A stretch of DNA of 64,000 nt, from positions 6,149,257 through 6,213,256 of the forward strand of contig NZ_CP042913.1 of NCBI RefSeq assembly GCF_008065115.1. Direction: 5' to 3'. This document shows positions 30,420 to 60,087 of the stretch, in pieces. The notes below the pieces were generated by a model that was given only the letters and a program-made list of their open reading frames with translations, was not told where the DNA came from and did not search any database. Origin of the DNA: Bythopirellula goksoeyrii. GTDB lineage: Bacteria; Planctomycetota; Planctomycetia; Pirellulales; Lacipirellulaceae. Both the position numbers and the translations under genes were made by a program. Each line of letters opens with the position of its first letter. The first letter of the stretch is position 1.

Positions 30420-30427
30420 TATAAGTT

Positions 30428-30456
30428 GTTAGCTATTAGCTGTTAGTCGTTAGCTA
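30428..30456. repeat. Four tandem 7-bp units between aceE and aceF
   Basis: The units are TTAGCTA, TTAGCTG, TTAGTCG, TTAGCTA (30429-30456), preceded by GTTG. The same heptamer style (GTTAGTG, GTTTGTA) forms the left end of the S23 cassette at 56.3 kb. There is no inverted partner here, so this may be a solo array left by an element. It lies in the 67-bp aceE-aceF gap. Confidence 0.6.
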
Positions 30457-30486
30457 TTGTTCAGTGAAAATTGGTCGTTCCGATTA

Positions 30487-50691: not shown

Positions 50692-52690
50692 GTCGAGTAG
50701 GCCCGGGGGATCTCTCCCCCAAGCCTCTCACAGAACCGGACTTGCGGGTCACGCATCCGGCTCTTCAAGTTGCTGCCTTAGGTTTCAAACAGTCGTTGCT
50801 GTTTGATGAAGACCTGTCGGGAAGGGTTCAAGGCATGCCAACGGTCGGTGAGCGGCATCAATCGTTCGGCGAACCAGGCGTTGGAATACGCCTGATGGAT
50901 GCCATAGCTGACACTGCGTCTCCAAACGCCAGCACGAGTGAAGGCGGTCTTAGCCGCCGACTTCCGAGAAACGCCACGTGTTTGCAGGTGGCGGAACAGA
51001 TACCGGTCCCGCTTCTTCTGACGAATGATAATCGCCCGAATACGACGCCGAATGTGGGCGTCGAACTTGTGGAGCGGTCGCAGGGAATCTTCGGTACACA
51101 ACCGAAAGTATCCAATCCATCCTCGCAGGTAGCGTTCGGTTCTCTCGAAGCACGTCGACAGCGATTGACCCCAGACTCGTGGCGTTAGCTCACGAATACG
51201 GGCATCCATTCGCTCCTTAGTTCGGCGAGAGATTGCCACCATGACTTGGCCCTCGGCATTCTTGCCGAGTTGAAAGCCGAGGAAAGTTAGATAATTCGGA
51301 CCCGTGACGGAACTCTTGTCTTCATTGACCAGCAGACGCAAGCGTCTATCAATGAATTTACTGACGGAGTCCATCACCCGACGACCGGCACGTTCGCTTT
51401 TCACGAACACGCTGAAGTCGTCGGCGTAACGCACGAACCGAAGTCCACGACGTGCCAGTTCCCAATCGAGTTCGTCAAGAACTACATTGGAAAGTAGCGG
51501 AGAAAGCGGACCACCTTGCGGTGCGCCTTCGGTCGTGGCCGTTCGTGTGCCATCGGGCAACACAACCTTCGCCTTGAGCATGCCATGCACTAGCTTTAGG
51601 AGACGCCCATCCTTTACGTGGTTCGCCAAGCGGTTTAATAGCCGCTGGTGGTGAACACGATCGAAGAACTTTGAAAGGTCAATATCGACCGTCCAGGCAT
51701 ATCCTTCTGCCAGATATTGCTTGGCCGCAGCAATGGCCGTTTGTGCACCACGCCTCGGACGGAATCCGTGACTGCTGTCGTGAAACGTCGGCTCGAAGAT
51801 CGGCTCCAAAACTTGGAGTACGGCCTGCTGAACCCAGCGGTCCACGACATTCGGAATACCTAGGCCCCGATGCCCGCCACCGGACTTGGGAATCCAGACC
51901 CGGCGAATGTCGCCAGGCAGGTAGGTACCCGAAAGCAATTCACGGCGTAGCTGAGCAAGCAGTTGGGGCGAAGCCTCAACCACTTCCCGTACACCACGTC
52001 CGTCCACACCTGCCGCACCTTTATTGCGCGCGACGTTAAGCAACGCCCGGGCCAAATTAGACACCGAGGCTACTTGTTCCAGTGACCGACTTGTGTCGTC
52101 GGCTACCCAGGTGGCTGGATGATCTACCTCCTTGGTATTCGCTCTGAGCAGCAGGTGCGACTTTCCCTTGGATTCGTCCGAGGTTCTCTCGTCCTTGCCC
52201 CCATGCGGGCTGTCGGCAAACGCGAAAGCCAGTTGGCATGTTCCAGCACTTAACAACTTGTCGCCCCCTTCGCTCCACCGGCATTACCCAGCTTCAGCAC
52301 TACTATGGGGCGATCCGACTTCTCTGCGGGCATCAACCGGTCGTCGTTGCCTTCTTCCGGAATACCGATAGGCGGACCCGCAGAGATCTCCTGGGGTAAG
52401 ATCGAACAATGTCCTGCCGCCTCCGCCCTCACTACTCCTCGGCCACCAACGGATATCGGGCGTCGCGCTGGAAGGCACGCTAACCCAGGTCCGAGAAGCC
52501 CGTTTGAGGGTTCACTTACGTTCGGTGCTGCAGTTCGGCTACGGCTTCCTCCCCACACGCCCTCGCGGGATAGACTTCGATTGTCCAATGTCCAAACTCC
52601 GTCTCGTGCAGTTGCTTTCACCTCGTGGTTACCTCCGTTAGGATCCACAGGGGACTTCCACCCTCAATCGCTCGACCATGCCCAGCGCAC
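50692..52690 (-). mobile_element. Complete group II intron with maturase ORF
   Basis: The 5' end is set by GTGCG (read from 52690 leftwards), the group II consensus. The 3' end is set by CTACTCGAC at 50700-50692. Domain V lies at 50763-50733 on the minus strand: an 8-bp outer stem GAGCCGGA/TCCGGTTC, inner TGCG/CGCA, loop TGACC and the AG bulge. Domain VI follows with GGGGGA-GA-TCCCCC. The ORF sits in domain IV. 'CCGGTGGAGCGAAGGGG' (about 52279-52263) is a conserved piece preceding the ORF. Length is about 2.0 kb. It looks intact and potentially mobile. Not inside a recognised gene. Confidence 0.85.
50778..52256 (-). CDS. ltrA: Group II intron reverse transcriptase/maturase
   Basis: 492 residues from a TTG; shorter starts are possible because no ATG occurs in the first 200 codons. 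RT motifs: 'NKGAAGVDG', 'PKSGGGHRGLGIPNVVDR', 'DIDLSKFFDRV' at 191-201, 'TTEGAPQGGPLSPLLSN' at 241-257 and the catalytic YADD at 277-280. The maturase (X/GIIM) domain has 'CFERTERYLRGWIGYFRL'. No HNH or other endonuclease domain is visible at the C-terminus. It helps the intron RNA splice and reverse-transcribes it on insertion. All catalytic residues are intact. Confidence 0.95.
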   Translation of the reverse strand: MLSAGTCQLAFAFADSPHGGKDERTSDESKGKSHLLLRANTKEVDHPATWVADDTSRSLEQVASVSNLARALLNVARNKGAAGVDGRGVREVVEASPQLLAQLRRELLSGTYLPGDIRRVWIPKSGGGHRGLGIPNVVDRWVQQAVLQVLEPIFEPTFHDSSHGFRPRRGAQTAIAAAKQYLAEGYAWTVDIDLSKFFDRVHHQRLLNRLANHVKDGRLLKLVHGMLKAKVVLPDGTRTATTEGAPQGGPLSPLLSNVVLDELDWELARRGLRFVRYADDFSVFVKSERAGRRVMDSVSKFIDRRLRLLVNEDKSSVTGPNYLTFLGFQLGKNAEGQVMVAISRRTKERMDARIRELTPRVWGQSLSTCFERTERYLRGWIGYFRLCTEDSLRPLHKFDAHIRRRIRAIIIRQKKRDRYLFRHLQTRGVSRKSAAKTAFTRAGVWRRSVSYGIHQAYSNAWFAERLMPLTDRWHALNPSRQVFIKQQRLFET

Positions 52691-55537: not shown

Positions 55538-55634
55538 GTAAGCCGCGATGCGCAGCGCCAGCGCAGCAGAGCGCGTTTTGACATGGCGACCGAGGACGCG
55601 CTCTGCTGCGCTGGCGCTGCGCATTGCGGCTAAC
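55538..55634. repeat. Long palindrome, 38-bp arms
   Basis: Arms 55538-55575 and 55597-55634 are inverted copies with only two mismatches, separated by 21 bases. The arm sequence is GC-rich and made of GCGCAGC/CAGCGC-type repeats. The right outer end shares the 14-mer GCATTGCGGCTAAC with 29018-29031. It lies between divergent SMR and Xre genes. It may be a REP/MITE-like element or a cruciform-forming site. Confidence 0.85.
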
Positions 55635-55729: not shown

Positions 55730-56260
55730 ATGCATACGACACAATCTGAGACTCAACTGCACGGGCTGCGACTGCTGCCGGGGGCGAATATTCGGCGGTT
55801 GATGGCCCGACTGGATATGACCCTGCAAGATGTGGTGGGCGCCACGGGACTCGATGAGCGGACCCTGCGGAGCATGTTGCAGGGGTCCACCCGGCCTCAT
55901 GCGCGTACGTTGCACAAATTGGCTCATGGCCTGGGCGTTGCCACCGACGAGCTGTTTCAGGATCCGTTCGGCAATGGTCAGGCAGCCTTCGATCGGGCCA
56001 CCAATCCGCTCGTTGCCGATGTGATCGACAGTCATCCCGAGATGTTCGACGACTGGCACAGCACGGACTACGAAGAACTCTTCAGCCGCATGGGGGTCGG
56101 CGGCGAGTTGACCGAGGAGGGAACCCTCTCCGCGGCGATCGCAATGAATGCTCGCCGCGAGTTGCAGTACCAGGTGTCGGTGATTCTGGAAACCGGCGAG
56201 GCTGATTTATTGCGGGAATTTGTCGGAATGTTGTTTCGGCGGGTGACGGAGGTGGGGTGA
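55730..56260 (+). CDS. Xre-family helix-turn-helix regulator
   Basis: 176 residues. The N-terminal 'GANIRRLMARLDMTLQDVVGATGLDERTLRSMLQGSTRPHARTLHKLAHGLGV' in pieces is a Cro/CI helix-turn-helix. The C-terminal 110 residues ('NPLVADVIDSHPEMFDDWHS', 'RRELQYQVSVILETGEADLLREFVGMLFRRV' in pieces) are helical and of unknown role. Its promoter carries a perfect inverted repeat. The stop TGA is also the first part of the left inverted repeat of the S23 cassette, so the insertion abuts the gene exactly at its end. The effector is unknown. Confidence 0.85.
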   Translation: MHTTQSETQLHGLRLLPGANIRRLMARLDMTLQDVVGATGLDERTLRSMLQGSTRPHARTLHKLAHGLGVATDELFQDPFGNGQAAFDRATNPLVADVIDSHPEMFDDWHSTDYEELFSRMGVGGELTEEGTLSAAIAMNARRELQYQVSVILETGEADLLREFVGMLFRRVTEVG

Positions 56261-56693
56261 GTGGTTTGTAGTTAGTGGTGAGAGAATGGGAGGTAATGAT
56301 TGGAATGAGTGATTTCAAGCAGCTTGAGGCGTGGAAGCAATCAATGCAGTTAGTAGACCAAGTTTATGATCTGTGCAAACTCTTACCAACTGATGAACGA
56401 TATGGCATTATCTCTCAGATGCAAAGATGCTCTATCTCGATACCTGCCAACTTAGCTGAAGGATGTGGCCGTGATTCGACAAAAGATTTCCTGAGGCACG
56501 TTGCCATATCCCGCGGTTCCCTCGCAGAACTCTCTACCTTCTTGACGTTTGTCCAACGACGCCGTTTCGTTACACCAGAATCTGTGACAACAATAGAAGA
56601 GCAGCTTGAGACCTGCGCCAAGCTACTCGGAGGATTACGTCGCTCCCTTCGCAGAAAGCTTAATCTCTAACCACCAACCACAAACCACCAACC
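56256..56693 (+). mobile_element. S23 four-helix-bundle cassette flanked by inverted heptamer arrays
   Basis: Ends at 56256-56279 and 56670-56693 are inverted copies, 20 of 24 positions equal. The right end is four tandem heptamers AACCACC, AACCACA, AACCACC, AACCACA (56669-56696). The left end reads GTGAGTG, GTTTGTA, GTTAGTG in heptamer phase. The only gene inside is the S23 protein, and the ends touch its stop codon and the stop of the upstream regulator. It looks like a compact mobile unit of about 440 bp. Confidence 0.6.
56305..56670 (+). CDS. Four-helix-bundle protein, S23/23S rRNA intervening-sequence (Avd-like) family
   Basis: 121 residues from the ATG with GGAGG 11 bases upstream; an ATG three codons before is also possible. 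'FKQLEAWKQSMQLVDQVYDLCKLLPTDERYGIISQMQRCSISIPANLAEGCGRDSTKDFLRHVAISRGSLAELSTFL' in pieces is the S23/PF05635 signature. The family makes pentameric barrels, occurs in 23S rRNA intervening sequences, and includes the Avd accessory of diversity-generating retroelements. Function of free-standing members is unknown. No retroelement reverse transcriptase is next to it. The gene is A/T-richer than its neighbours. Confidence 0.9.
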   Translation: MSDFKQLEAWKQSMQLVDQVYDLCKLLPTDERYGIISQMQRCSISIPANLAEGCGRDSTKDFLRHVAISRGSLAELSTFLTFVQRRRFVTPESVTTIEEQLETCAKLLGGLRRSLRRKLNL

Positions 56694-56701
56694 ACACAAT
56701 C

Positions 56702-59841: not shown

Positions 59842-59914
59842 AGTTGCGAGTTTCGAGCTACGAGTTTCGAGTCCTACAACTCGCGCCTCGCAACTCGTCA
59901 CTCATCACTTAATC
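59842..59914. repeat. Inverted heptamer arrays without an S23 gene
   Basis: Left: GAGTTTC, GAGCTAC, GAGTTTC, GAGTCCT. Right: ACAACTC, GCGCCTC, GCAACTC, GTCACTC, ATCACTT. The right units are inverse complements of GAG-type heptamers, so the arrays face each other. The outer arms AGTTGCGAG/CTCGCAACT match perfectly. The right array overlaps the end of the neighbouring small gene. Confidence 0.6.
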
Positions 59915-60087
59915 ATTCTCTCCACCGTGACTCGCGAGTACTGGATATGCCCATCTTGCACGGTGATCGTCACGCTGGCCGAGCCATGAAACCCGGCGAC
60001 GCAGGCGTTTTCTAGTAGTCGCTGGAATTCGGCTTGCGCTTGTCGGCGTCGGTCGCTCGGCGGTGAGTTGGCTTTCGTTCTTGTCAT
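59905..60087 (-). CDS. Small hypothetical protein at the head of the phage module
   Basis: 60 residues from the ATG at MTRTKANS; the frame is open upstream but starts with a less likely Met. Basic N-terminus ('PPSDRRRQAQAEFQRLLEN'), then 'GSASVTITVQDGHIQYSRVTVERMIK', a short beta-rich end. I do not recognise a family, but planctomycete phage clusters often have a similar small gene before the protease. Its last codons and the stop lie in a heptamer array. A strong terminator separates it from the protease gene. Confidence 0.5.
   Translation of the reverse strand: MTRTKANSPPSDRRRQAQAEFQRLLENACVAGFHGSASVTITVQDGHIQYSRVTVERMIK

Follow-up and report, generated by a model that had tools for sequence, protein, structure and literature searches.

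The 73-bp block at positions 59842-59914 of the window (the whole 64,000-nucleotide stretch of Bythopirellula goksoeyrii DNA that was analysed) is probably a non-autonomous form, lacking a gene, of the element family to which an S23 gene cassette located 3.2 kb away also belongs, and we propose an S23-mediated mechanism for this family. Four features of the system are directly evidenced: its architecture, the presence or absence of S23 at orthologous sites, the matching of one arm to the other and the correlation of the heptamer 'dialect' of the arms with S23 lineage. Gain or loss of the element between related species is shown, although this does not of itself identify the mover.

The gene-less hairpin and the neighbouring S23 cassette

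The block consists of two facing arrays, the second of which runs into the end of a small gene:

59842..59874, + strand: left array of the gene-less hairpin, with the GAG-type heptamers AGTTGCG AGTTTCG AGCTACG AGTTTCG AGTCC (lag-7 agreement 19/28)
59875..59877, no strand: hairpin junction (loop) of about 3 bases, TAC, as read from the sequence
59878..59914, - strand: right array, inverted, AACTCGC GCCTCGC AACTCGT CACTCAT CACTTAATC (lag-7 agreement 19/30)
59905..60087, - strand: gene of 60 aa; its stop codon (59905-59907) and the outermost hairpin unit overlap

An earlier note on this DNA had described inverted heptamer arrays forming a 73-bp block across a junction of a few bases, and had proposed that the 7-bp periodicity be compared with that of shuffled sequence. 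Both the layout and the periodicity stand: summed over the two arms there are 38 lag-7 matches in 58 comparisons, whereas the best of 5000 dinucleotide shuffles gave 29. As none of these shuffles reached 38, chance periodicity of the block was rejected. Ungapped identity between the arms is 21/35 (equalled in 2 of 2000 shuffles), whilst Tandem Repeats Finder reports the left arm only (59842-59872, period 7). Folded as RNA, the segment 59836-59917 gives -22.3 kcal/mol on the + strand (z -3.0) and -35.9 on the - strand (z -5.4); the DNA fold of the hairpin's + strand gives -13.1 (z -2.8). At the gathering score, Rfam finds no structured-RNA match at the block, the only matches in the 64-kb window being to two group II intron families at 50692-52572. 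The intron there lies on the - strand and carries a reverse transcriptase, with equal-scoring RVT_1 matches at six places in the genome. As to the 60-aa gene, this sits in a cluster with a gene for a phage-type capsid protein (PF25209).

The same note had called for a comparison of the locus in relatives. Heptamer hairpins with other units are indeed present there, but all the forms seen at this site (in G000, G004 and G005) are gene-less. In G004 and G005 a similar gene end is followed by a heptamer hairpin (L325 and L326, respectively) whose arms are of the TAGGCGC/GCGCTAG type in G004 and the GTCAGTA/GTTGTCA type in G005, as against GAGTTTC in the window. The best lag-7 windows listed for the G004, G005 and window hairpins are 15, 19 and 16 of 21.

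In the S23 cassette, inverted arrays enclose a gene:

56252..56283, + strand: 5' arm of the S23 cassette, units of the GAGTGGT TTGTAGT TAGTGGT type, recognised by eye and unreported by Tandem Repeats Finder
56305..56670, + strand: S23 (23S_rRNA_IVP / TIGR02436) gene, identified by profile matches and fold
56669..56696, - strand: 3' arm of the S23 cassette, inverted, units of the ACCACCA ACCACAA type (Tandem Repeats Finder, period 7, 56669-56695)

The product of this gene scores 114.9 bits against PF05635 (cut-off 33.8) and 110.9 bits against TIGR02436 (cut-off 24), and an in-frame GTG lies upstream of its start, at 56275. The AlphaFold model (mean pLDDT 96.7) has a four-helix fold that matches 2gsc with TM scores (query) of 0.93-0.97 and 2rld with 0.84-0.86, the nearest solved S23 relatives being five-chain entries. 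After these two, the next structural matches are Avd proteins (4dwl, 8ube), and at the sequence level bAvd and DivGenRetAVD match weakly, with scores under the cut-off. S23 is the sole gene of the window's cassette and gave no transposase family match. The genome encodes five S23 genes. Arms are recognisable by eye around them, in one case with period 8; L004, an S23 gene of the same genome, has 8-base units (GAGTAAGT), with many copies in one arm. Just 5' of an HTH gene and the S23 cassette, at 55540-55630, a long near-perfect palindrome of another kind (GCGCAGCGCCAGCGCAGCAGAGCGCG...) can be made out by eye.

Heptamer arms with and without an S23 gene

To place the cassette in a wider setting, flanks were scored at 124 S23 loci of the window's order, mostly the high-scoring ones among 290 S23 matches in 97 genomes, by taking the best 28-base window and counting period matches out of 21. 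Period 7 reaches at least 17/21 upstream of S23 in 52 of the 124 loci and downstream of it in 48. The corresponding counts are 6 and 5 for period 8 and 0-1 for each of the remaining periods from 5 to 12, with shuffled flanks averaging 0-0.4. Both arms reach at least 15/21 in 66 of the loci, leaving 58 without such a pair. The same period is seen in named genomes of many phyla, where the best 80 of at least 576 S23 loci were scored with a threshold of 15/21 on real flanks only: period 7 was found upstream in 50 and downstream in 43, and each other period in 0-5. These 80 loci include Bacteroidota, Proteobacteria, Acidobacteria, Cyanobacteria, spirochaetes, clostridia and five planctomycete records. 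Two Xanthomonas S23 loci (L377, L378) have CGGGAAT arms.

The median arm length is 4.3 units (107 upstream arms passing the threshold, which makes at least 4 units a matter of construction). When the arms are aligned in phase, one column is 96% G and the base preceding it is mostly A; in 100 column-permuted controls no column exceeded 80%. A preliminary lag test on 35 S23 loci, 28 of them parsed, gave lag-7 agreement of 0.34 and 0.33 against 0.26 in the control. Six motifs of 23S rRNA occur in only one of 428 loci, L290, and this is not an S23 locus but a site of ribosomal-protein genes. Outside cellular chromosomes, no S23 was found in 50,697 phage records, and 20 of 72,556 plasmid records, mostly cyanobacterial, carry the gene.

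Gene-less pairs were sought with the pattern GAGN4GAGN4GAG-N0-30-CTCN4CTCN4CTC, the same pattern read backwards serving as control. The genome-wide search that the earlier note had suggested did yield further examples: the 6.47-Mb genome holds 8 distinct GAG-type gene-less pairs, of which the focal block is one, and the control pattern finds 0. Across the order, at least one such array is present in 42 of 97 genomes (reversed control: 2 of 97, G004 and G027), and these counts are lower bounds because the pattern detects GAG-type units only. An S23 gene is present in 40 of the 42 genomes with arrays compared with 31 of the 55 without (Fisher p 1.5e-5, Spearman 0.51, kinship ignored). The two array genomes lacking S23, G011 and G020, are 77% and 66% complete, whilst the figure of 31 array-free genomes with S23 comes from a pattern that covers one dialect only.

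These sets of genomes bear on the possibility of retro-mobility, in which S23 would behave like Avd and the hairpin RNA would be copied by a partner reverse transcriptase, the arrays being rewritten or inserted in this way. The match of the S23 model to Avd and the sub-cut-off bAvd and DivGenRetAVD matches would fit such a scheme. RVT_1 is, however, found in 24 of the 42 array genomes and in 27 of the 55 without arrays (p 0.54), and none was found in array-rich G005, G049, G090, G032, G010 and G002, some genomes being incomplete; we consider retro-mobility very improbable.

A link between gene-less and S23-bearing forms is also seen in the arms themselves. Gene-less arms resemble the S23 arms of the same genome with a similarity of 0.678, versus 0.611 under label permutation (3/2000; 38 of 44 compiled hairpins). 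By eye, none of the five S23 genes of the window genome has GAGTTGC arms, and the gene-less hairpins of this genome find their best-matching S23 arms in G003, G004, G014 or G019. In the case of the focal block the best matches are in G003 (0.82) and G004 (0.81), with 0.65 in its own genome; the focal dialect is thus without a resident autonomous partner.

Elsewhere in the window there is a single array:

30420..30462, + strand: lone heptamer arm, TTAGCTG/TTAGCTA units (Tandem Repeats Finder, period 7, 30429-30458)

This arm lies behind the aceE gene and directly precedes the start codon of the next gene, which is dihydrolipoyl acyltransferase-like. Its DNA fold is no more stable than that of shuffles (z 0.03) and it looks like a one-arm relic, resembling the sucD arm in the same genome. 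Several gene-less hairpins in G055 have near-identical arms (GAGTGCGGAGTGATGAGTGATGA type) with short loops unrelated to one another.

Gain, loss and change at orthologous sites

The names of the genes at the sites compared below have different origins. CarB, the fatty acid CoA ligase-like protein, SucD and aceE are named from NCBIfam, the fragments scoring under full-length cut-offs except in the case of aceE; the permease rests on a weak family match, the ATPase-like gene, unmatched in NCBIfam, owes its name to its Walker motifs, and rplW, rplB, sucC, pheS, pheT and the RND-like gene were named by reading the sequence.

The suggestion in the earlier note that the S23 gene is an optional cargo is upheld by orthologous sites with and without it (the window's S23 site, the permease and sucC-sucD sites, and the sites of L227 and L241), the S23-less arms being read by eye. 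The closest relative found by protein identity is G004 (carB fragment 94%, permease fragment 98%). At the site of the window's S23 gene, G004 has a GAGTTGC-type hairpin without S23, the left flank being 82% identical and the right flank compared by eye. At the sites of two G004 cassettes (L227 and L241) it is the window genome that has S23-less heptamer arms, one pair of them enclosing a different hairpin (by eye). Between pheS and pheT, G004 has an S23 cassette where, in the window genome, the stop codon of one gene overlaps the start codon of the next, and a further G004 cassette, L273, is missing from the window genome, which has an empty junction there. No target-site duplication is visible by eye at pheS-pheT or at the L273 site, where the flanks are only 77-84% identical; such duplications are hard to read because the species compared are too distant.

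Two further sites have been sampled more widely. At the permease site, S23 is present in 12 of 30 loci, with arms of differing units and a broken copy in G006; an S23-less 7-mer hairpin occupies the site in G022 (by eye), and G033 is another S23 case. Between sucC and sucD, S23 is present in G004, G009 and G016 and an S23-less hairpin in G046, and an apparent single arm has been kept in several genomes, including that of the window (by eye). Hairpins of apparent 8-9-base units (CACGGAGGCACGGAG, ACCACAAAGGGCACTAAGGACACGAAG) are also found at both sites (L176, L177 and L180 at the permease, L169 and L150 at sucC-sucD) and may be the arms of a second, similar element family.

S23 sequences cluster by site (permease 0/500, sucC-sucD 0/500 and RND-like 2/500 shuffles), in a site tree with 19 of its 40 inner branches open and 16 rows of unassigned site at the permease group's open fork. 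One simple ancestral S23 per site was nonetheless rejected: the permease-site S23 of G000 groups with that of G001 (100/98) despite a permease fragment that is 98% identical to that of G004 and 76% to that of G001, and cassettes can therefore be replaced.

Gene-less arrays are found within genes as well as between them. Three of the 8 GAG-type hairpins lie inside open frames, all of them in frame, in carB, the fatty acid CoA ligase-like gene and the ATPase-like gene. Among 28 carB loci, an array insert occupies the same position in 7, a degenerate insert is present in one (G013) and 18 have none; the remaining 2 were non-parsed, and their match coordinates suggest no insert. The open frame is kept across the carB and other in-gene inserts seen. 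Between rplW and rplB, heptamer hairpins are present by eye in 12 of 14 species, the exceptions being G007 and G009, with units that span GAGTTGC to TAGTTGT to AGCTGTT. Some of these are apparent intermediates and, judged by sequence, look like gradual in-place change rather than fresh insertion. Of the 10 parsed rplW-rplB hairpins, 8 have a best lag-7 window of at least 13/21 in one arm or both and 5 have one of at least 15/21, whilst those of G010 and G006 reach at most 12/21 in both arms. In G003 and G013 the hairpin between these genes is a tandem double (L318, L319); the second hairpin of G003 follows a short GTTTTAG resembling the sequence at the rplW stop codon, and may be a local duplication.

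Persistence at the same site across the genus with changing units, as at rplW-rplB, carB, the ATPase-like gene and the focal site, together with the intermediates at rplW-rplB, would also be expected of hairpins that do not move at all, if slippage makes the 7-bp arrays, template switching copies arm onto arm and S23 is an enclosed bystander. Against this, the junctions at pheS-pheT and at the L273 site are empty and 18 of the 28 carB loci have no insert, and the occurrence of a 7-bp period across phyla, the correlation of S23 with dialect described below and the shared AG signature all exceed what slippage provides. We therefore regard immobile hairpins as rather unlikely and favour membership of an S23 element family. 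The claim of the earlier note that the arrays are the mobile part has less firm support, namely gain or loss of elements between related species.

Its further idea of a structured RNA was not sustained. Hairpins that serve as RNase III processing sites or stabilise operon mRNAs would account for several observations. S23 is mostly co-directional with the longest flanking ORF (89/119 upstream and 104/121 downstream, by a crude ORF rule), and the focal hairpin is more stable on the strand of the neighbouring gene. It is reported that most GGGNATC-type repeats are transcribed (Rehm et al., PMC4692102) and that the 28-bp stem of the S23-bearing Coxiella IVS is cut by RNase III (PMC4990558). Of 28 gene-less hairpins, however, 14 are more stable as RNA of the coding strand and 14 as RNA of the opposite strand (Wilcoxon p 0.76), and cutting within carB or other coding sequence should, we reason, break the message. 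A role as RNA is in our judgement quite improbable.

Dialects, a proposed mechanism and known systems

The two arms of a locus resemble each other more than they do the arms of other loci, with a motif similarity of 0.797 versus 0.526 across loci (66 loci with both arms at least 15/21). Measured by duplex energy against about 40 random partners, the own partner is best in 43 of the 124 S23 loci; at the permease site own arms are best in 5 of 12. For gene-less hairpins, 28 copies were compared at five fixed sites (10, 7, 4, 4 and 3 copies, with double, relic and non-parsed hairpins excluded). Own arms pair better on average than swapped arms at each of the five sites and are the best pairing in 16 of the 28, some foreign arm pairing as well or better in the other 12. 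Since own arms match best on average at fixed sites, the arms tend to stay matched during sequence change.

S23 protein distance correlates with arm-motif distance (rho 0.342, 0/2000 permutations, no tree correction). The correlation is also seen between genomes only (rho 0.341, 0/2000) and with the flank-GC difference removed (0.340, 0/1000), and at protein p-distances of at least 0.45 and at least 0.55 it is 0.301 and 0.158 (the latter 3/2000), respectively. Neither here nor in the Fisher comparison of genomes do orthologous loci and related species count as independent. A single dialect per genome was considered and rejected: the motif distance between S23 cassettes is 0.489 within genomes and 0.481 between them, and as the former is no smaller, dialect is not a property of the genome. 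The earlier note had remarked that the focal units differ from those of the nearby S23 cassette. This is compatible with one system and is no objection to it, because units vary between S23 cassettes too, following the S23 lineage.

Many S23 dialects are G-rich, and for the GGGAATC and GGGGAYT repeats it has been proposed that such arrays are kept as G-quadruplex elements, Rehm et al. (PMC4692102) describing a preference for four units and G-quadruplex formation in vitro. Runs of three G are, however, missing from the focal units and from many other units (GAGTTGC, AGCTGTT, CAGTTTT), which keep the period and layout all the same, and a G-quadruplex explanation of the arrays seems to us scarcely credible.

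If the block and the cassette belong to one S23 element family, a mechanism can be proposed as follows. Members of the family would end in inverted tandem arrays, often of four to five seven-base units, that combine a shared AG-centred signature with a unit dialect, and full members would carry the S23 gene between the arms. TRAP is a ring protein that binds NAG repeats; by analogy, each S23 subunit may bind one unit, and a ring would take up about five. Recognition of the arms by S23 is suggested by the architecture, the optional gene, the correlation, the Avd-like fold and the five-chain solved entries. By pairing two inverted arrays, S23 would mark the ends of the element for some host recombination or replication enzyme, which would then insert or remove the element. 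At a given site, slippage and copying from arm to arm would let the units drift, or they would be swapped when another family member displaces the resident, and surviving copies would be those between operon genes or in frame within protein genes. Neither a transposase or recombinase nor a target-site duplication came to light for the family, and the moving step is a gap in this scheme.

S23/IVP proteins, familiar chiefly from rRNA intervening sequences (IVS), are found in many phyla and have solved structures; we know of no established function for them. With their own heptamer arms they gain a candidate substrate, and several unexplained bacterial heptamer repeats gain S23 as a candidate partner. 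The comparisons also reveal that CarB, a central enzyme, can keep palindromic inserts in frame, and that the two arms of a hairpin at a fixed site change in step. Taking this further, we think it possible, if on balance doubtful, that there is a bacteria-wide class of mobile elements without a transposase of its own. Here S23 would read the heptamer dialect as a ring, with one subunit per unit, and gene-less hairpins would spread, even in frame into essential genes, and be rewritten in place with their arms matched; cyanobacterial STRRs, Xanthomonas GGGAATC repeats, TAACTGA repeats and S23-bearing rRNA inserts would then be one and the same system.

Cyanobacterial STRRs are repeats of 7-bp units. 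Earlier work describes heptamer repeats of the GGGAATC and GGGGA(C/T)T type from Xanthomonas and Nostoc (Rehm et al. 2015, PMC4692102) and TAACTGA repeats from Beggiatoaceae (MacGregor 2015, PMC4679880). According to the former paper, the repeats have 7-bp units and a four-unit preference, with paired inverted sites in Xanthomonas, and in this the arrays described here are similar. Neither paper uses the terms 'S23' or 'four helix', and a search of the open-licence literature gave no report that connects S23 to heptamer arrays.

Rickettsia palindromic elements are palindromic blocks that lie in frame inside protein genes, as do the carB, CoA ligase-like and ATPase-like copies, whereas the focal copy is intergenic; passages of PMC10969869 describe neither tandem heptamers nor an S23 partner for them, and the likeness is one of description. 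REP-RAYT and IS200-like systems and MITEs combine a gene-bearing form with many small, same-ended, gene-less palindromes, as is the case here, and the two arrays of the focal block constitute terminal inverted repeats of the kind that MITEs possess. In contrast to these systems, which have a parent element with a transposase, the window's S23 cassette has no transposase family match in its S23 gene on scanning, and no target-site duplication was seen. The Avd protein of diversity-generating retroelements shares its fold with S23, whose nearest solved relatives are five-chain entries, but those retroelements have a reverse transcriptase partner and the arrays show no such association (24/42 versus 27/55).

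The closest parallel in layout is with the rRNA IVS of Coxiella, Salmonella and Leptospira, in which inverted ends surround an S23 gene, as they do in the S23 cassettes here. Gene-less forms of the rRNA IVS exist. These sequences are located in 23S rRNA, whereas the sites described here are protein operons and protein genes; there is no rRNA family match in the window, and the focal block is thus not an insertion in 23S rRNA. According to passages of PMC4990558, the Coxiella IVS stem is 28 bp in length, which is the length of four sevens, and a mobile origin for this S23-bearing rRNA insert was already suspected by earlier authors.
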